NCBI GenBank assembly: GCA_026390695.1
Contig: JAPLFL010000047.1
Location: 1-34,825, forward strand
Direction of reading: 5' to 3'
DNA: 34,825 bases
DNA from: Candidatus Kapaibacterium sp.
Lineage (GTDB): Bacteria > Bacteroidota > Ignavibacteria > Kapaibacteriales > UBA2268
Shown here in pieces: positions 16,963 to 29,066 of the stretch; positions within the stretch are counted from its first letter, which is position 1, and every line of letters begins with the position of its first letter. The position numbers and the translations under genes were made by a program. The notes below the pieces were generated by a model. That model was given only the letters and a program-made list of their open reading frames with translations, searched no databases and was not told the DNA's origin.

Positions 16963-17037
16963 ATTTGAATTTTTCTTTTTTATTTGTAATTTGCTGACGT
17001 GTTATATAATGTTTACTCAATTAAGAGTGGTGAAATT

Positions 17038-18036
17038 ATGTCGTCTGATTTTAATCCTTATTACAATTACGATTCCGATGCTCTGATGAACCTTATTACC
17101 GCTTTTCAAAAAAGCCGGATAATTCTCACCGCTTGTGAATTGGATATTTTTAACGCTCTGGGCAAAGACTCAAAAACAGCCGGTCAGGTAGCTTCCGATA
17201 TTCAGACTGATGAAAGGGCTACTGGTAGGCTTCTTAATGCACTTGTAGCGCTCAATATACTTGAAAAGAATAAAAATCTTTATTCCAACAACAAATCGGC
17301 TCAAAAGTATTTGGTAAACGGTGCTTCGGAATATTTTGGCAATGTAAAGCATTTGAACCACCTTTGGGATATTTGGAACAACCTTACCGATGTCATTAAA
17401 CAAGGAAAACCGTCGGAAATTGATTTTGAAAAAAACAGTACTAATCTTGAGAATTTTGTTTCGTCAATGCACTTTAGGGCTAAACAGCACGTTGTAGAAT
17501 TGACAGACCTTATTGATTTCAGCGATATTATACATGTATTGGATTTAGGAGGCTGTTCAGGTGCATATTCTATGGAATTTTCGAGGGCAAAACCACTTCT
17601 TAAATGTACAATTTTTGATTTGCCAGAGGTGATACCTCATACGAGAAAAATCCTTGAAGATGCGGGCTTTTCATATAAAATCGAGCTTTTATCCGGTGAT
17701 ATGTTCACTGATGATATTGGGAAAGGCTATGATATGATTTTTGCTTCTAATATCTTACATAGTTATTCGCTTTGGGAAAATATAAAATTGTTGGAACGCT
17801 GCTATGATGCCTTAAAGTATAACGGTAAATTAATTATACATGATATGATGCTCAATGAAGATAAGGTAACTCCGCCTGCAAATGCGGTTTTTAATATCAA
17901 CATGCTTGTAAATACTACTCATGGCGAAACTTATACATTGTTAGACTTATTTTTCATGTTGAAGGAAGCATGGTTTTCAATTGATTCAACTCAACATACG
18001 GCTTTTGGCAGTGATTTAATTTTTGCACATAAATAG
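17038..18036 (+). CDS. SAM-dependent O-methyltransferase with dimerisation domain
   Basis: I choose the ATG at 17038 over the GTG at 16999; an AGAGTGG lies upstream of it. The product has 332 residues. The N-terminal winged-helix dimerisation domain includes ILTACELDIFNALG and RATGRLLNALVALNILEK. The Rossmann domain has motif I VLDLGGCSGAYS and the acidic FDLPEV. NILHSYSLWENIKLLERCY corresponds to the plant-type OMT block in which His241 would be the catalytic base. Relatives include acetylserotonin, caffeate and bacterial polyketide or tetrapyrrole-side-chain methyltransferases; the acceptor cannot be inferred. The stop is separated by one base from the start of a GT9 glycosyltransferase, so the two are translationally coupled and may modify the same envelope or secondary-metabolite molecule. 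Confidence 0.85.
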   Translation: MSSDFNPYYNYDSDALMNLITAFQKSRIILTACELDIFNALGKDSKTAGQVASDIQTDERATGRLLNALVALNILEKNKNLYSNNKSAQKYLVNGASEYFGNVKHLNHLWDIWNNLTDVIKQGKPSEIDFEKNSTNLENFVSSMHFRAKQHVVELTDLIDFSDIIHVLDLGGCSGAYSMEFSRAKPLLKCTIFDLPEVIPHTRKILEDAGFSYKIELLSGDMFTDDIGKGYDMIFASNILHSYSLWENIKLLERCYDALKYNGKLIIHDMMLNEDKVTPPANAVFNINMLVNTTHGETYTLLDLFFMLKEAWFSIDSTQHTAFGSDLIFAHK

Positions 18037-18037
18037 T

Positions 18038-18979
18038 TTGAAAATATTATTTATTCAATTGGGCAGAATAGGTGATATGATTCTGGCTTCACCGAGTTTC
18101 GGATTGCTTAAAAATAAGTTTCCCGATATTCAAATTGATGTTCTTGCAAGCCGCCACAATAGCGGAATAATAAAGAATAATCCTAATATTGACAATATTA
18201 TCATTTTACAAAAATCACCAAAAAAAATTATCAATTTTATTTTCAGATTGCGTAAGCAGTATTATGATTATTATTTGGATCCAAAAGATCATTATTCACG
18301 GGAAGGCGCTCTGATTGCATGTTTAGTCAGAGCAAAAAATAAAATTTATTATAATCATAATCTGATTGAAACAGAAACAAGGCATTATTCGGATATTTAC
18401 ACATCTGCCCTGAGTATTTTTAATATTCATCTTGACAAAATGCTAATTCCCGAACTTTTTACAGAGCTGGCTTCGGATATATACGTTGATAATTTTTTTA
18501 AGGAGAACAATTTGCAGAAGCCGATTGTTTTAAATATATCTGCTGGTGAGCCTTACCGAATGTTAGATTCTGAGAAGTGGTCAGAATTTTTGAACCGGAA
18601 TAAAGATTTTAGGTTTGTTATTAGTTTTTCGCCTGAGCATAAAGTTCTTGCCGAAACAATAATAAATTCAACTCAGAATAGCCTTAGCTTTCTTTCACGA
18701 TCTTTTGATGATGCTATCTCCCTTATTAAAAGTGCAAGGATGCTTATCAGCCCTGACACTTCACTTGTACACGTTGCGGCGGCTTTTAATATTGATTTAT
18801 TGGGCTTATATTCCGGGCTTGAAGAAAATTACTTACGTTTTGAACCAAGATCTGATAGAAAGGAAATAATTAGGTCAAGTCCGGGAAGCTGGGGTATTGC
18901 ATCTATCACGGTTGATGAGATTGATGCTGGGTTCAGGAGGCTGCTAAATGCTGATAAAGTTACCCTATATCAAGTTTAG
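18038..18979 (+). CDS. Glycosyltransferase family 9 (heptosyltransferase-like)
   Basis: The start is probably the TTG at 18038 (read as MKILFIQLGRIGDMILASP), the typical N-terminus of GT9 enzymes; a second TTG at 18023 would overlap the preceding gene. This gives 313 residues. GT9 enzymes transfer ADP-heptose or related sugars to lipopolysaccharide core. The N-terminal QLGRIGDMILASPSF and the C-terminal ISPDTSLVHVAAAF, which contacts the donor nucleotide, are both present. The middle segment VLNISAGEPYRMLDSEKW resembles the usual acceptor-side region. It is slightly shorter than WaaC/WaaF (about 320-350). The last 20 bases overlap, tail to tail, the convergent histidine kinase gene. Which sugar it adds is unknown. 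Confidence 0.83.
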   Translation: MKILFIQLGRIGDMILASPSFGLLKNKFPDIQIDVLASRHNSGIIKNNPNIDNIIILQKSPKKIINFIFRLRKQYYDYYLDPKDHYSREGALIACLVRAKNKIYYNHNLIETETRHYSDIYTSALSIFNIHLDKMLIPELFTELASDIYVDNFFKENNLQKPIVLNISAGEPYRMLDSEKWSEFLNRNKDFRFVISFSPEHKVLAETIINSTQNSLSFLSRSFDDAISLIKSARMLISPDTSLVHVAAAFNIDLLGLYSGLEENYLRFEPRSDRKEIIRSSPGSWGIASITVDEIDAGFRRLLNADKVTLYQV

Positions 18980-20468
18980 GAAATATGGTTACGAAACTTG
19001 TTCCTACATTTAATTGGCTCTCAACGTGTATTTCCCCTTTTAATGATGCAATACAGTCCTTTACAATCGACATTCCTACACCTGTGCCTTGTATCTGCCC
19101 TACATTTTCACCTCGGTAAAATGGCTCGAATATGCTACCTAATGACTCTTCGGGTATTCCAATTCCATGATCACTAACCTTTATTATAAAAACCGTCTCT
19201 TTATCATATAATTCCACCATTATGTCGGTCTTTTGAGGTGAAAACTTTATACCATTGGTTAAGAGATTTAAAATGATGTGATTGAAAAGTGTTTTCTGGA
19301 TATATACTTCAAGGTCAGGATTTTCAGTCTCGAAAATAATTTTGTGGCTATAGTTATTAATTGCTTCTATTTCTTTGATAGTTTCAGAAATAATGATATT
19401 CGGATTAATGTGCTCTTTCTTTGTTTCAAGTTTATTTAAATCTTTTTTATTTAGAAATAAAACATCCTCCAGAAGAGCTGTCATATTGTGAACAGAGATT
19501 CTGATTTTATCTATTTGTTTAATAAATTCGGTTTCAGCATTTTTTTTGAAAAAAAGCTCTAAGAGATATGTTGAAGATAAAATTACTGTTAAAGGTGTTC
19601 TGTATTCATGCGAAACCATTGAAACGAATTTGGACTTCAGTTTATTTAGTTCTTTTTCGTTAATAAAAGCAAATTCCATTTCGTCGCGGGCTTGTTTGAG
19701 TGCGATTTCCGTATCCCTTCGCATTTTGATTTCTTCCTTTAAACTTTTGTGCGAGGTTTCAAGTCTTTTTATCATTTTATTAAAAGCTCTTGCAAGTTGG
19801 CCGATTTCATTATTACTTTTTATTTTAAGTCTCAATGACAGATCACCTTCTCTGATTTTATCAACTGACACTTTAAATCTCTTTAATGGAGCTATTAGTA
19901 GATAACTTATTAAAAAAACAAACAATAACCCTATCAGAAAAATGATTACACTTATTGAGGCGATTGTTTTCTTTGATTGTTTGGATTGAATAATCATTTC
20001 ATCAACTGAAATCCCGATATACAAATATCCTATAACCTTCAAATTTGAATGCACTTCGTGTCGTGTTTTGTAAACATTATTTATCAACGTTTTACTATCT
20101 TCAAAAATATCTTTGTATTGACATTCGTTTGCTAACTTTAAATTATGCTTTCCTAATATATGACCTTGATTGTCAGTAATTACAATATAGGATATATCAT
20201 GAAGTAATAACAAACCATGCATCTCATCGTCAATTGCAGAATTATCTTGAAAATAAAGAGCAGAAGACATGCTAAACGCTGAAATTTCACCGATACTTTT
20301 AGCTTTATCCTGCAAAGAATCAAAGTAAACTTCTTCAAATTTCTGAGGGAAATAGAAATAAATTACAATTGAAAGAATAAACACAAGAAATGAAAAAGGT
20401 AAAATTAATTTATATGATAAGGATAAGTCATCAAATTTGATAATAAGTTTTTTAATGCTTTCTTTCAT
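18960..20468 (-). CDS. Membrane sensor histidine kinase with CHASE8-like periplasmic domain
   Basis: The 502 residues run: helix 1 (20-40), a periplasmic domain (about 41-165), helix 2 (168-192), HAMP (193-245) and a coiled coil. HisKA follows with His287 in FVSMVSHEYRTPL. The ATPase domain has the N-box NLLTNGIKFS (Asn405), DHGIGIPE and GTGVGMSIVKD. The periplasmic SAFSMSSALYFQDNSAID, then an LLLLHDISYIVITDNQGHI strand pair, resembles CHASE8, the sensor fold of the diguanylate cyclase YfiN/DgcN. The upstream gene encodes a YfiR-like protein, the family that represses YfiN in the periplasm. That supports the same partnership with a kinase output in place of GGDEF; it is inference. It is the last gene of a three-gene operon (5-nt gap) with no adjacent response regulator. 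Confidence 0.9.
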   Translation of the reverse strand: MKESIKKLIIKFDDLSLSYKLILPFSFLVFILSIVIYFYFPQKFEEVYFDSLQDKAKSIGEISAFSMSSALYFQDNSAIDDEMHGLLLLHDISYIVITDNQGHILGKHNLKLANECQYKDIFEDSKTLINNVYKTRHEVHSNLKVIGYLYIGISVDEMIIQSKQSKKTIASISVIIFLIGLLFVFLISYLLIAPLKRFKVSVDKIREGDLSLRLKIKSNNEIGQLARAFNKMIKRLETSHKSLKEEIKMRRDTEIALKQARDEMEFAFINEKELNKLKSKFVSMVSHEYRTPLTVILSSTYLLELFFKKNAETEFIKQIDKIRISVHNMTALLEDVLFLNKKDLNKLETKKEHINPNIIISETIKEIEAINNYSHKIIFETENPDLEVYIQKTLFNHIILNLLTNGIKFSPQKTDIMVELYDKETVFIIKVSDHGIGIPEESLGSIFEPFYRGENVGQIQGTGVGMSIVKDCIASLKGEIHVESQLNVGTSFVTIFPKLDIG

Positions 20469-20473
20469 TTATG

Positions 20474-21046
20474 TTATTCTAATATTTTTGAAATCTTTAA
20501 TAATTGTGAACTAAACTCAATATTTGTTCTCTTGGCTGCTTTCAGGTTAATAACTATCAATGGCTTGCCTCCCCGATTCCAGCATGTTACTATGGTACCT
20601 TCTTCCGAATAAGCATTAGAAGCGCTGAATGAGAGAATCCCGTTGTCAATGAACAAATCATTTATTTCTTTCACACTTATTGATTTAATTGATGAAAGAT
20701 AAGCAAATTGGACATTATTTGAATGAATATATTTTTCAATTTCCTTGATATTATCAAAACAAAATTCTTTAATAAATACATTTTTCCCTTCAAAATTAGT
20801 AAGATTATTTTCATTAAAATAATTAACAACGTCGTTTTTTATCACTAAGGAACTCTTATTATTTTTTTGATAAATCAGATGTAAAACAATTCCGTCTTTA
20901 GTTTTTTCGGAATATTTTTTATCAAAAGTAATTACTTTTAAAAAAATTGGGATGTGAATATCGGGTGCTGTTGCGATATCATCTGCATCAATAAAATTAA
21001 ATAATAAGCACAGTAAAAAAATATATGTAAGAAATTTATAAATCAT
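20474..21046 (-). CDS. YfiR-like periplasmic protein (DUF4154)
   Basis: This 190-residue protein begins with a signal peptide (hydrophobic FLTYIFLLCLLFNFIDA, cleavage near 21). The C-terminal block GKPLIVINLKAAKRTNIEFS followed by SQLLKISKIL is the DUF4154/YfiR hallmark (INL.AA...I..S..LL). In Pseudomonas, YfiR binds and silences the periplasmic part of YfiN. Pseudomonas YfiR has disulfides; here the mature part has only Cys96 and Cys155, so at most one could form. The ATG overlaps the stop of the TonB-dependent receptor gene (ATGA at 21046-21043), and the kinase starts five bases after its stop, so expression is tightly coupled. The likely role is a periplasmic modulator of that kinase. Confidence 0.8.
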   Translation of the reverse strand: MIYKFLTYIFLLCLLFNFIDADDIATAPDIHIPIFLKVITFDKKYSEKTKDGIVLHLIYQKNNKSSLVIKNDVVNYFNENNLTNFEGKNVFIKEFCFDNIKEIEKYIHSNNVQFAYLSSIKSISVKEINDLFIDNGILSFSASNAYSEEGTIVTCWNRGGKPLIVINLKAAKRTNIEFSSQLLKISKILE

Positions 21047-23091
21047 ATAGTGAAAGTAATTTTTAAATACCAGCGACGGCCGTATTGAGATAATAGAATT
21101 TGCTGCATGTTAGGATCTGCAGGCAGACTCATTTTATTATCAAGTAGATTCTTTATTATTAATGAAAATTCGGTATTATTTATAAAATTAGCATTAGCTC
21201 CGGTTCCTTTGAGATTTGGTTTATAAGCGAATGTAAAATCAGTTTGAATAATTGATTTTGACTTAGTAGTATAATCAAGACATAATCGTGGAGATTCATA
21301 TCTGAATTCAGCAGACATTAAAAATGATTCCCAGATAAACTGGGATGCTCCGAATTTAAAAATTAAATCGGGATAATAGTCTATTTTTATTTTATCAGAA
21401 TCATTTCGTGAGTCAGTATAAGCAAAGTTTGTGTAAGTGATCAGGCCGAAAGGAAATTTGGCGAATAAATCCATTTCAACTCCATAAGAGGTCATTTTAT
21501 TAACATTTCTATATGAATAAATAGGCATGTTAAGAGAATCAGAGCCAACCTGAGTTAAGTCAATAAAATCATTAAGTCTATTATAAAAAATAGAAAATGA
21601 TCCGTAATAATATTTAAGAAAAGATTGCTCATATGCTAATTCACAGGATTTTATTAATTCCGGCTTCAGGGATAAATCTCCGAGATGAAATTTAGGATTG
21701 AAAGATGTTTCCTCATAAATACTTGGAGCTCTGAAAGATTGACTGTACAAAAGTTTGATAACGGATTTTTCAAAAGGATTAAATAGTAAAGCAAATCTTG
21801 GAGAGAAATGATTCACTATTTCCAAATAATCATCGTACCTTAATCCTGCCATAATGTTCAAATTTTCTAATAATTGCCATGCATCCGAAATGTAAATAGA
21901 ATAGATATTAAAAGGAACATTATAATAATTCGAGCTTGTGCGATCCCAGCTCTTATATGATGATTCGACATTATCAGTAAATGACAAAATCAATGATGCT
22001 CTATTTGAAGGCAAAATATCCCAATTGAAATTAATTTCTGAACCGAACCATATTCCTTTAGAGTCATCGAAAGTTAGATAATGCCCTTGAAGGCTGTCGA
22101 AGGCTGTTAAAGGTGAATAAGGGTAAGTGCCAGTATAATAATATTTATCGAAACTAACTTTGGCATTCAAATCAAGTGAAGGAGTTAATTTTCCTTTCCA
22201 CAATAACTCTGTAAAGTTACGCACATCGGTATTTTGTGCAGCTTTATCATTAAATAACATACCCCAGCTCGCTGTAGGAATGCCATGTGATCTTGAATTA
22301 TAATATGAATGGAAATTAAATCCTTTGTAAACAGCATTCAGATAGAATCCATGATACTTTTCCCAGTCAAGTTTATTTGTAACTCCATAATTGGTTTTCG
22401 GTTTATCAAACTCCTTGAAATATTGATCTGAACCGCTTATATTTGCAATTTCGGAACTGAAAGTAACATTTAAACCATTATCAAACTCCCGCCCGTATTT
22501 AAAACTCGTCGATATGGTTTCCATGCTGCCGACTTTTGATGATAATCGTGCACCATTAATCTTCATCCCATCTTTAGTGATAATATTGATAACACCAAAC
22601 AAGGCTCCTGATCCGTACAAGGCAGCACCGGGACCACGAACAATTTCTATTTTATCAATTATATCAACTGAAATATTCAGTTCATTCTCGTAATAAACCT
22701 GTCCATAATAATTATCACTCATCTGATGACCATTTATCAAAACAATGATGCCGCAGGAATAACTTGCAGGACGCAGGAATCCTCTTGTACCCATAAAAGT
22801 ATAGTCCATATCAAAATTCTGAAAAAATCCACGAACAGAATTAACTGCTTCTCCGACTGTCTGCCAACTGAAGCGCTTGATTTCATCACTGCTAATTAGG
22901 GTAACGGACGCTGGAGCATCAATTATCTGCTGATCATATTTTGAGGCAGAACTTATTTTGGTGTTCATCAATTCTTCAAACAAGGAATCAGATTGTTCAA
23001 TATTTGACTTTATATCTTCTGCAACTAATTTGTTGAATTGAAAAAAGAAAAGGAAAACAATAATAAATGATTTCCAATATATTGTAAACAT
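21043..23091 (-). CDS. TonB-dependent outer-membrane receptor
   Basis: The 682 residues begin with a signal peptide (to about A24). The plug domain, about 45-175, contains ISSASKYDQQIIDAPASVTLISSDEI, split here as ISSASKYDQQ and IDAPASVTLI, then IDKIEIVRGPGAALYGSGA with FGVINIITKDG. The remaining 500 residues are alternating beta strands with aromatic residues, ending in RRWYLKITFTI, a barrel terminus. It lacks the N-terminal carboxypeptidase-like domain of SusC proteins and is shorter, closer to siderophore/cobalamin-type or small-molecule receptors. It is first in an operon with the YfiR-like protein and the CHASE8-like kinase, so its ligand may be what the kinase reports. The substrate is not identifiable; no SusD partner is present. 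Confidence 0.93.
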   Translation of the reverse strand: MFTIYWKSFIIVFLFFFQFNKLVAEDIKSNIEQSDSLFEELMNTKISSASKYDQQIIDAPASVTLISSDEIKRFSWQTVGEAVNSVRGFFQNFDMDYTFMGTRGFLRPASYSCGIIVLINGHQMSDNYYGQVYYENELNISVDIIDKIEIVRGPGAALYGSGALFGVINIITKDGMKINGARLSSKVGSMETISTSFKYGREFDNGLNVTFSSEIANISGSDQYFKEFDKPKTNYGVTNKLDWEKYHGFYLNAVYKGFNFHSYYNSRSHGIPTASWGMLFNDKAAQNTDVRNFTELLWKGKLTPSLDLNAKVSFDKYYYTGTYPYSPLTAFDSLQGHYLTFDDSKGIWFGSEINFNWDILPSNRASLILSFTDNVESSYKSWDRTSSNYYNVPFNIYSIYISDAWQLLENLNIMAGLRYDDYLEIVNHFSPRFALLFNPFEKSVIKLLYSQSFRAPSIYEETSFNPKFHLGDLSLKPELIKSCELAYEQSFLKYYYGSFSIFYNRLNDFIDLTQVGSDSLNMPIYSYRNVNKMTSYGVEMDLFAKFPFGLITYTNFAYTDSRNDSDKIKIDYYPDLIFKFGASQFIWESFLMSAEFRYESPRLCLDYTTKSKSIIQTDFTFAYKPNLKGTGANANFINNTEFSLIIKNLLDNKMSLPADPNMQQILLSQYGRRWYLKITFTI

Positions 23092-26686: not shown

Positions 26687-27460
26687 AAATATTTCCGTAA
26701 TTTAGTAAGTTTAGATAAAATAAAGGCTAAAGTAACGAAAACAGATTCAGGTAAAATCATAGTTTTTACTGATTTTGACGGCACAATTACTATAAAAGAT
26801 ATCGGAGATGAACTATTCATTGAAATGGGGCAGTTTGAGCCATTCCACAGCGATTTGATTAATGGGAAAATAAACATACAGGAATATTGGAAGTCTTTAT
26901 GCAGTTCATTAGGATCAAAAATAACGAAGGAAATTATTGAACGGTATGCGTTAAATCAGGCAATAGATCCATATTTTGCTAATTTTGCAGATTTTTGTTC
27001 AACAAGTGGGATTAATTTAGTTATTCTCAGTGATGGCTTTGATTCATATATAAAACCAATAATTAAATCTATTTCAAAAAATGGAATTAAAATAGTCTCA
27101 AATAAAATGATATTTCAACCAAATACGGCTCCTGTTCCTATTTTTCCATTATCAAGCGAAAGCTGTCATTGTTTATGTGCTTCGTGTAAAAGGAACGGAA
27201 TGTTGAATGAAGCCGATTTGGAATCGATTTTTGTTTATATCGGTGATGGATATTCTGATTTTTGTGCCGCCGAACATGCCGATATAATATTTGCAAAAGA
27301 TAGATTAGCTGCACATTGTACAAAAAATAAAATTCCCTATCATAATTTTCGTAATTTTGACGATATATTACAAAAGTTCAAGACAATTACTGTGAAAAAG
27401 AGAATAAAAATCAGAAACCAAGCATATTTAAACAGAACAAAGGCAATAATATTTGAATAA
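26684..27460 (+). CDS. MtnX-like HAD-IB phosphatase
   Basis: This 258-residue HAD phosphatase has motif I VFTDFDGTIT (nucleophile Asp30, acid/base Asp32), motif II ILSDGFD (Ser116), a basic FAKDRLAAHC segment as motif III and motif IV YIGDGYSDF (188-193). The C2-type cap contains a Cys cluster CHCLCASCKRNG (Cys161, 163, 165, 168), a form of the Cys-rich element seen in MtnX and related 2-hydroxy-3-keto-5-methylthiopentenyl-1-phosphate phosphatases; it may bind zinc. The methionine salvage role is not supported by neighbours, so the substrate stays open. No in-frame ATG precedes motif I, and the TTG at 26684 is the only usual alternative. The downstream kinase begins 19 nt after the stop. Confidence 0.82.
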   Translation: MKYFRNLVSLDKIKAKVTKTDSGKIIVFTDFDGTITIKDIGDELFIEMGQFEPFHSDLINGKINIQEYWKSLCSSLGSKITKEIIERYALNQAIDPYFANFADFCSTSGINLVILSDGFDSYIKPIIKSISKNGIKIVSNKMIFQPNTAPVPIFPLSSESCHCLCASCKRNGMLNEADLESIFVYIGDGYSDFCAAEHADIIFAKDRLAAHCTKNKIPYHNFRNFDDILQKFKTITVKKRIKIRNQAYLNRTKAIIFE

Positions 27461-27479
27461 TTTTATTTTAATTGAACTT

Positions 27480-29066
27480 ATGGAAAAAATAAAACAATTT
27501 TACAACAAAATCATTATCTCAACGAAAACATCGATTGTATGCGATATTACGCTTTTTCCATTAAAAAAAGTATTCTTCATTTTGATATCTGCTATTGTAA
27601 TCTCATCAACTGCTTCTGCTACGGATGAATTTATCACAAAGCTCGATGGAATCAAGATAAATGGTAAATCCATAGATACAAACAAAAAAGAAATCATCAT
27701 CCGAGATAATGATTCATTAACCATATTTTATTCATTACTCGCTCCTAAAGACCGTCGTGATAATTTTTTGTTTAAATACAATCTTAAAAATTCGAGGAAT
27801 GATTCTACTTATGGAACAAAGAATGAGCCCTTGCTAATCTATAAAAGTCTTTTCGAAGAGAAATGGACTTTGATAGTTCAAGCATTTGATCCCCGCGGAA
27901 AGTGGCTTGCCGAGCCACTAAAAGTAAAATTCACAGTCAATAATCATGAAGCAAATTTATTGGCACATATTGATAGTCTGGAAAAAAAAATAATAGCAAA
28001 AGATTCAATCATAGTTGATGTAAATAAAAAATTAAAAAGTTCAAAAACTTTCGATATTGTATTGCCGATAATTATTATCGGAGCCTTAATAATCTTTGCA
28101 ATCATTATTATATTGATTATATTTGGCAGACTGAAAAAAATGAAATCAAATAAACCTAAAGATAAAATGGATAATAATGTGACTCTTTCAAAAAATGAAT
28201 ACGATAAAATTCAGATTGAAGTTGGCAATTTAAGAGCAGAAATAGCAGCTCTCCGTGGTCAGATAGACGCGATGCAGAACAGAGCCAATGAAATGCGTAA
28301 TCAGAATAAAGAGCTTGAAGAGCGGATAAACAGGCTTTCTATAAGTAAGCGTGAACTTGAAGAACTCCAGAAACAGAAAGATGAACTTTTTGCAATTATT
28401 ATTCATGATATTAAAAATCCCGCTTCCTTAATAAAAAGTCTTGTTGAGCTACTTCGCTCTTATGATTTAACCGCAAACGAGCAGCAGGACATTATCCATG
28501 ATATTGTCGAAACAACTTCCAAGATTGTTTCTCTGTCACAGGAAGTATCTCGTGTTCTCGCTTTAGAAGGCAGCCGGATGAAACTTGACATGGAGCCAAT
28601 AAATGTGAATGAGCTGATTACAAGTATATTTACTCGAAATAATGTAGCTGCAAAAAATAAAAATATCTCCATGACCTGTGAGCTGTTCGAAGATTTGCCG
28701 GATTGCCAGTGTGATCCCCAAAAGATTGAAGATGTTATTGATAATCTTATTTCAAATGCCATTAAATTTACCCATCAAAACGGAGCGGTTAAATTGCGTT
28801 CTCGTTTTGAAAATGAAAGAGTTATTATTGAAATTAGTGATACCGGACTTGGTCTGTCAATTGATGATGTGCAACGTGCCTTCCAGCGCGGAGCAAGATT
28901 ATCAGCAGCTCCTACAGCCGGAGAAACATCATCGGGACTGGGTCTGTGGATTGTTAAGAAATTAGTTGAAGCTCATAAGGGCAAAGTTTGGGTAAAGAGT
29001 ACTTTAGGTAGAGGTTCAACGTTTGCATTCGAGCTACCACTCGAACAATACGCAGATACAGAGTAA
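27480..29066 (+). CDS. Membrane sensor histidine kinase with extracytoplasmic Y_Y_Y-like domain
   Basis: From the ATG at 27480 (a TTG at 27453 is less likely) the product has 528 residues. Helix 1 (about 31-48) acts as signal or anchor. A periplasmic beta domain of about 145 residues follows (50-192); its stretch IFYSLLAPK, FLFKYNLKN and WTLIVQAFDPRGKW resembles the Y_Y_Y domain of hybrid sensors. Helix 2 is 193-216. A long coiled coil (235-300) with heptad-like ELEERINRL and RELEELQKQKD leads to His309 in FAIIIHDIKNPASL. The ATPase part has NLISNAIKFT, DTGLGLSI and SSGLGLWIVKKL. It has no receiver domain or adjacent regulator. It is co-directional with the HAD gene, and a strong terminator at 29088-29127 ends the unit. 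Confidence 0.88.
   Translation: MEKIKQFYNKIIISTKTSIVCDITLFPLKKVFFILISAIVISSTASATDEFITKLDGIKINGKSIDTNKKEIIIRDNDSLTIFYSLLAPKDRRDNFLFKYNLKNSRNDSTYGTKNEPLLIYKSLFEEKWTLIVQAFDPRGKWLAEPLKVKFTVNNHEANLLAHIDSLEKKIIAKDSIIVDVNKKLKSSKTFDIVLPIIIIGALIIFAIIIILIIFGRLKKMKSNKPKDKMDNNVTLSKNEYDKIQIEVGNLRAEIAALRGQIDAMQNRANEMRNQNKELEERINRLSISKRELEELQKQKDELFAIIIHDIKNPASLIKSLVELLRSYDLTANEQQDIIHDIVETTSKIVSLSQEVSRVLALEGSRMKLDMEPINVNELITSIFTRNNVAAKNKNISMTCELFEDLPDCQCDPQKIEDVIDNLISNAIKFTHQNGAVKLRSRFENERVIIEISDTGLGLSIDDVQRAFQRGARLSAAPTAGETSSGLGLWIVKKLVEAHKGKVWVKSTLGRGSTFAFELPLEQYADTE

Follow-up and report, generated by a model that had tools for sequence, protein, structure and literature searches.

A conserved operon of a TonB-dependent receptor, a YfiR-like protein and a CHASE8-type histidine kinase in Candidatus Kapaibacterium suggests a trans-envelope signalling system

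The closest described relative of the system reported here is YfiBNR of Pseudomonas aeruginosa and Escherichia coli, in which the YfiR-family protein is encoded beside YfiN (also TpbB or DgcN), a CHASE8-HAMP membrane protein with a GGDEF output, and the lipoprotein YfiB provides an outer-membrane third partner. Work by Malone et al. placed the contact between the two proteins at the AAVVF motif of YfiN and around F162 of YfiR, and the main text of their paper reports YfiR-YfiN cores with histidine kinase, HPT, GGDEF-EAL or methyl-accepting chemotaxis protein (MCP) outputs in distant relatives, where the more distant operons almost always lack YfiB (Malone 2012, PMC3375315). Here we describe an operon of this exchanged-output kind, again joining YfiR to a YfiN-type sensor, on the minus strand of a 34,825-nucleotide stretch of DNA from Candidatus Kapaibacterium sp. 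(contig JAPLFL010000047.1; hereafter the window). It comprises genes for a TonB-dependent outer-membrane receptor (682 residues, 21043–23091), a YfiR/HmsC-like periplasmic protein (190 residues, 20474–21046) and a sensor histidine kinase (502 residues, 18960–20468), which probably act together to signal across the envelope. A kinase output for YfiR is not new (PMC3375315); the receptor as a recurrent third partner is the less documented and more interesting part. The terms ‘TonB’ and ‘Bacteroid’ have no match in the main text of that paper, and the open-access literature, judged mostly from titles and summaries, yielded no paper describing a receptor-YfiR pair.

The original prediction had placed the three genes at these coordinates, and a check of the open reading frames (ORFs) confirmed both the genes and their tight packing: the stop of the receptor gene and the start of the YfiR-like gene share a 4-base ATGA overlap (21043–21046, minus strand), and 5 bases (20469–20473, strand not assigned) separate the YfiR-like gene from the kinase gene. 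Pfam matches identify the receptor (Plug, 3.3e-14; TonB barrel, 9.2e-34) and the kinase, in which a CHASE8-type sensor (residues 51–151) and a HAMP domain (residues 187–237) precede a core of HisKA (7.9e-10, with the phospho-acceptor His287) and HATPase_c (3.8e-24). The operon contains no response-regulator gene. Like YfiBNR, the locus sets a YfiR-family protein beside a HAMP-containing membrane protein with a CHASE8-type sensor, keeps the contact phenylalanine of the AAVVF motif and has an outer-membrane third partner. It differs in that the output is a HisKA/HATPase_c histidine kinase rather than GGDEF, the third partner is a TonB-dependent receptor rather than the YfiB lipoprotein, the YfiR cysteines are absent and the F162 position is occupied by isoleucine. 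A further likeness is to the TOL_0244 receptor and TOL_0243 YfiR-like families (NCBIfam NF053590 and NF053591), again a TonB-dependent receptor with a YfiR-like partner, whose consecutive numbers suggest that their genes are neighbours; however, the window proteins match these models far below their cut-offs (109.9 of 645 for the receptor and 22.6 of 125 for the YfiR-like protein), so they are distant relatives.

The assignment of the kinase sensor to the CHASE8 type, which had been made by eye, holds at borderline strength: PF17152 matches at 1.4e-5 and 25.7 bits in the protein scan, against a cut-off of 27, whereas a six-frame search of the genome gives 29.2 bits. No other CHASE8 match in the 4.63 Mb genome reaches E ≤ 0.001, and a CHASE5 match in the same kinase is weaker (0.0014). 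The domain (20016–20318, minus strand) carries a SALYF motif, with EAAVVFAD of E. coli DgcN aligning to SSALYFQD of the window kinase and F73 standing at the position of the AAVVF phenylalanine. The model of the periplasmic domain has a predicted local distance difference test score (pLDDT) of about 90, but 62 for residues 121–130; the fold comparison of the whole kinase was dominated by the kinase core (residues 265–501) and says nothing on the sensor domain.

The YfiR-like protein matches PF13689 at 1.5e-9 and 38.5 bits, over the curated cut-off of 24.9 and across profile positions 36–142 of 143, and its predicted fold matches solved YfiR, so the YfiR/DUF4154 signature noted previously is clear. 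Its AlphaFold2 model (33 relatives, mean pLDDT 94.1) matched YfiR 4zhu_B in both Foldseek (2.7e-6) and VIA-align (Z 14.3, root mean square deviation, rmsd, 2.7 across 142 residues). Substrate-binding proteins (SBPs) ranked equal to or above YfiR in this comparison, with Z scores of 16.0–16.7 for 3lkv, CD0873 and 3lft (rmsd 4.5 to 6.3), and with Foldseek 1.3e-8, Z 14.7 and rmsd 3.0 across 146 residues for RmSBP (PDB IDs: 5z6v/6k1x), a single-domain SBP of Rhodothermus marinus whose structure is reported as solved without a known function (PMC10805632). The likeness of YfiR to one lobe of SBPs is already in print (PMC4655355), and for Pseudomonas YfiR weak binding of L-tryptophan and vitamin B6 is reported, at the pocket that YfiB occupies (PMC4887326). 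Sequence-based searches of the PDB found the YfiR entry 4yn7 with a wider family profile (A7, 2.1e-6), and no YfiR entry with the window sequence alone or with profile A4; the YfiR proteins of loci L062 and L055 as single queries matched nothing relevant, and the matches of profile A9 were a designed protein (7.5e-5) and two weak ones, with no SBP. The likeness to RmSBP is one of fold: RmSBP is missing from the sequence matches of the window protein and of its family profile, and profile A7 against an RmSBP homologue gave E 0.016 and a probability of 2.8%, so that a sequence link is not established. PF04392 (ABC substrate-binding protein) likewise had no match to the YfiR-like protein up to E 1, despite the similar YfiR-like fold.

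Across 14 operon-type YfiR proteins, the sole invariant columns are I164 and L183, which align with F162 and L181 of Pseudomonas YfiR. The F162 position, associated with YfiN binding, is thus hydrophobic in the window protein and is F, I or L in eight aligned classical YfiR proteins, a conservative change rather than identity. The Pseudomonas disulfides Cys71–Cys110 and Cys145–Cys152 are not conserved in the window protein, whose only cysteines past the signal region are Cys96 and Cys155; neither is kept in 13 aligned relatives, and Cys155 lies one column away from the Cys152 position (alignment A6). Redox sensing through YfiR disulfides was therefore rejected for this protein.

We then surveyed 394 genomes of the same phylum, drawn evenly. 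PF13689 matched in 39 and an operon-type YfiR profile in 23, jointly giving 70 distinct YfiR places in 41 genomes, while CHASE8 was found at 53 places in 39 genomes. The two are closely linked: a same-strand YfiR match ends 120–212 bases before the start of 28 of the 53 CHASE8 matches. A TonB-dependent receptor directly adjoins YfiR on the same strand at 43 of 69 places (37 upstream and 6 downstream), against a background rate of 3 in 265 ORFs (same loci, minimum length 150 residues, minimum distance three ORFs; Fisher p 2.5e-32). The place left out of this classification (genome G425, locus L082) was read by hand, and there too YfiR lies between the receptor and a CHASE8 kinase with the order kept. 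A histidine kinase profile gave 22 places with receptor, YfiR and kinase in this order. Because MCP and GGDEF proteins have the sensor and HAMP part in common with the kinases, the profile picks them up as well; L055 and L062 were removed, and at the remaining 20 places, spread over 19 genomes and including the window, the histidine kinase was confirmed by Pfam. The uncorrected figures of this profile (39 of 69, 28 places with both partners, and the corresponding Fisher test) were not used as support. At L055 (4539–6428), the receptor-YfiR pair is followed by a CHASE8 chemoreceptor, and at L062 (3089–4255) by a CHASE8-HAMP-HAMP_2 protein cut by the contig end. A CHASE8 match was present in the six-frame search at 17 of the 20 places. 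The same order occurs in two genomes outside the sample (L011 and L012), and at L068 the trio runs in the reverse order; the named genome collection yielded one locus only. Conservation of the gene order in relatives, a check named in the original prediction, is therefore borne out and extends to Pseudomonadota plasmids. In the same-family relative L011 (5635–9777), the receptor and kinase frames are each broken in two while the YfiR-like frame is intact, which may reflect decay or sequencing error.

In five genomes, YfiR and the histidine kinase are fused into one protein, each encoded directly after a receptor gene (L103:5579–7909, L104:5612–7744, L105:5168–7549, L106:3732–6014 and L107:3024–4964). 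Three of these fusions were confirmed by Pfam, which did not report CHASE8 in the three that were scanned (L103, L104 and L107), and receiver domains were confirmed after two (L103 and L107). A receiver-like protein of 126–135 residues and a hybrid kinase come after the kinase at L085, L087, L093 and L095, as read from sequence alone. At L064 (7031–7951), in another family, a carboxypeptidase-regulatory plus TonB_C protein stands between YfiR and a kinase-receiver pair, and L065 and L070 have a similar-sized gene at that position.

Among plasmid records, ten Pseudomonadota replicons with YfiR were found, and all ten have a receptor upstream, a figure biased upward by the use of receptor-linked YfiR queries and not to be read as a rate; three operon-type YfiR queries had no plasmid match. 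Seven of the receptors are annotated as one gene and that of CuT4-3 as two pieces; in HL-AS1 a profile found a 403-residue piece, separated from YfiR by an IS30 gene, and in the unannotated Indioceanicola record the receptor was likewise found by profile. A third gene lies directly downstream in all ten, encoding a hybrid kinase in three and a GGDEF-EAL protein in seven. CHASE8 was recognised in nine of these products, that of HL-AS1 staying under the cut-off at 25.7 bits; the tenth, from Caballeronia sp. M1242, carries an EAL annotation and shows a GGDEF motif. Sensor and putative brake thus persist across outputs that vary between kinase, hybrid kinase, GGDEF-EAL protein and chemoreceptor.

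A parallel arrangement, in which other families fill the first two positions, occurs at L115 (3856–8124), where an outer-membrane barrel of the Alginate_exp type, an RmSBP homologue and a CHASE8-MCP stand in a row. The 207-residue homologue (PF04392, 26.1 bits against a cut-off of 25.9; RmSBP, 8.2e-11) lies directly ahead of the chemoreceptor, and the barrel, encoded on the same strand, lies some 420 bases further upstream. When 27 chosen genomes were searched for PF04392, five matched, and only L115 has its match beside a listed CHASE8 gene. Genes like that for RmSBP are often near chemoreceptor genes, according to its authors (PMC10805632). Because a channel and a binding protein of other families here occupy the same positions, this one case speaks for a channel that supplies a binding protein rather than for an anchor with a structural role only.

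From the genes and their domains, the YfiR-like fold, the kept order and contact residues and the interchangeable outputs in relatives, we consider it probable that the operon is a trans-envelope signalling system in which a ligand of the receptor alters the grip of the YfiR-like protein on CHASE8 and, with it, kinase activity. A link between YfiR, kinase and receptor is favoured because of the CHASE8-YfiR linkage, the excess of receptor neighbours over background, the repeated gene order, the fusions, the invariant I164 and L183, the contact phenylalanine kept in every YfiR-linked CHASE8 domain and the correlated distance matrices of the three genes, and a ligand relay fits because the fold of the YfiR-like protein matches both YfiR and SBPs and because of the L115 parallel. 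Physical contact between the YfiR-like protein and the kinase, repression as the default state and delivery of the ligand by the receptor are, in our judgement, the most likely arrangement, with the YfiR-like protein as a putative periplasmic brake. The receptor would take a ligand across the outer membrane to the YfiR-like protein, a single α/β domain of the SBP kind that would sit in the periplasm on the CHASE8 domain of the kinase. The interface would be a conserved hydrophobic patch formed by I164 and L183 facing F73 of the kinase. Arrival of the ligand, or a transport-driven change in the receptor, would shift this grip and thereby kinase autophosphorylation, and the signal would be carried onward by a response regulator encoded elsewhere.

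Several observations weigh against this interpretation. YfiR stands without a neighbouring receptor at 26 of the 69 places, and the genome of the window itself has a second YfiR-kinase pair without one (L010:6354–8566, contig C80), in which YfiR is nearer the classical type (136.7 bits) and the kinase sensor matches CHASE8 at 17.7 bits (E 0.0044). The operon is patchy, as only 3 of 35 same-family relatives match the window YfiR, and two of these have the trio. At three of the 20 places with the kept order (L051, L052 and L053) there is no CHASE8 match, the sensors being MCP-like_PDC_1/dCache at L052 and 7TMR-DISM at L053, and protein scans list CHASE8 even less, with none for L072 at 1e-3 and none for L050, L088 and L100 at 1e-5. 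Small-molecule binding by YfiR is reported to be very weak, at 35.2 and 76.9 mM (PMC4887326). The distance matrices of the three genes correlate in a set of 23 operons, of which two have a third gene other than a kinase (r 0.54–0.59, with 0 of 2000 permutations as high), but such a correlation cannot tell co-evolution from shared species history. The contact phenylalanine was examined at 49 of the 53 CHASE8 places, the other four being among the five weakest matches. It is kept in 29 of 29 YfiR-linked domains (28 of 28 with YfiR directly upstream, plus the reversed L068). Of the 20 domains with no adjacent YfiR, a set that includes L115 with its SBP-type partner, 16 keep it; the exceptions are Leu at L114, Tyr at L116 and Ala at L128 and L130. 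The residue is therefore mostly a general CHASE8 feature, lost only in unlinked domains, and we rejected the motif as proof of YfiR binding, the difference being in the right direction but small and the sequences related. The CHASE8 kinase of L114 (3901–5412), with Leu at the F73 position, belongs to a genus whose other members have YfiR beside theirs.

We weighed three other explanations against a ligand relay. In a direct sequestration, which we regard as unlikely though a serious contender, the plug or N-terminal segment of the receptor would bind the YfiR-like protein and replace YfiB as its outer-membrane anchor, with no ligand passed. The precedent is YfiB itself, which is outer-membrane-bound and is reported to bind YfiR at the hydrophobic pocket that also takes the small molecules mentioned above (PMC4887326); the frequency with which a receptor adjoins YfiR and the lack of a YfiB-like protein among five neighbouring proteins scanned are in keeping with such a substitution. 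However, the window receptor has no recognised extra periplasmic domain, and at L115 a porin-like barrel occupies the place of the receptor. It is rather improbable that the receptor is instead co-regulated cargo, with the kinase controlling an uptake gene and the YfiR-like protein independently sensing envelope stress or redox state, a role suggested earlier for YfiR and HmsC. Co-transcription of transport genes with their regulators is common, and some YfiR-kinase pairs, such as that of L010, manage without a receptor, yet the link to the receptor crosses phyla and persists where the output is c-di-GMP (cyclic di-GMP) metabolism or chemotaxis, for which autoregulation of uptake is less expected, and the Pseudomonas disulfide cysteines are not conserved. 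That three unrelated genes are merely chance neighbours in a compact stretch is a very remote prospect: other window genes also lie close together or overlap (for example, 16999–18036 and 18023–18979), but the order recurs in 19 of 394 genomes and in all ten plasmids found, fused proteins exist, and on the evidence of the phylum survey we rejected chance clustering.

TonB-dependent transducers of the FecA-FecR-FecI type also couple an outer-membrane receptor to regulation. Unlike these, the window receptor has no STN signalling domain at its N-terminus, its sole Pfam matches up to E 1 being Plug, the barrel and a sub-threshold barrel model, and no FecR was present among the scanned operon and neighbour proteins; a FecA-type transducer was rejected on these grounds. 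The genome has no second copy of the receptor at E ≤ 1e-20. In a different genus, FecR is encoded close to both a receptor-like gene and a YfiR-CHASE8 kinase gene pair (L081).

The trio probably reports something outside the cell to its interior, and it turns up in unrelated bacteria, among them the culturable soil bacterium Sphingobium indicum B90A (L121), joined to various output enzymes. Should a receptor prove to be the regular outer-membrane partner in these lineages, its substrate would be the signal, and sensing by the YfiR brake would become testable. More tentatively, an outer-membrane channel, a small protein of the SBP fold (YfiR or RmSBP type) and a CHASE8 receptor may form a general plug-in input module of the envelope, wired to kinases, c-di-GMP enzymes or chemoreceptors, in which a TonB-dependent receptor, where present, could set the grip of YfiR on CHASE8 by relay or by sequestration. 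If true, this would be a TonB-dependent signalling route that needs no STN domain, FecR or extracytoplasmic function (ECF) sigma factor. The L115 arrangement would also suggest a role for the orphan single-domain RmSBP. Taken as a whole, the original prediction is partly supported, with a CHASE8-type sensor, a conserved gene order and contact residues kept in kind.

A promoter scan near the operon was uninformative, with 30 sites against an expected mean of 23.7 (standard deviation 5.7). The end of the kinase gene overlaps the convergent gene at 18023–18979 by 20 bases. Elsewhere in the window and outside the operon, a separate histidine kinase (27453–29066) has a long coiled coil ahead of its kinase core.

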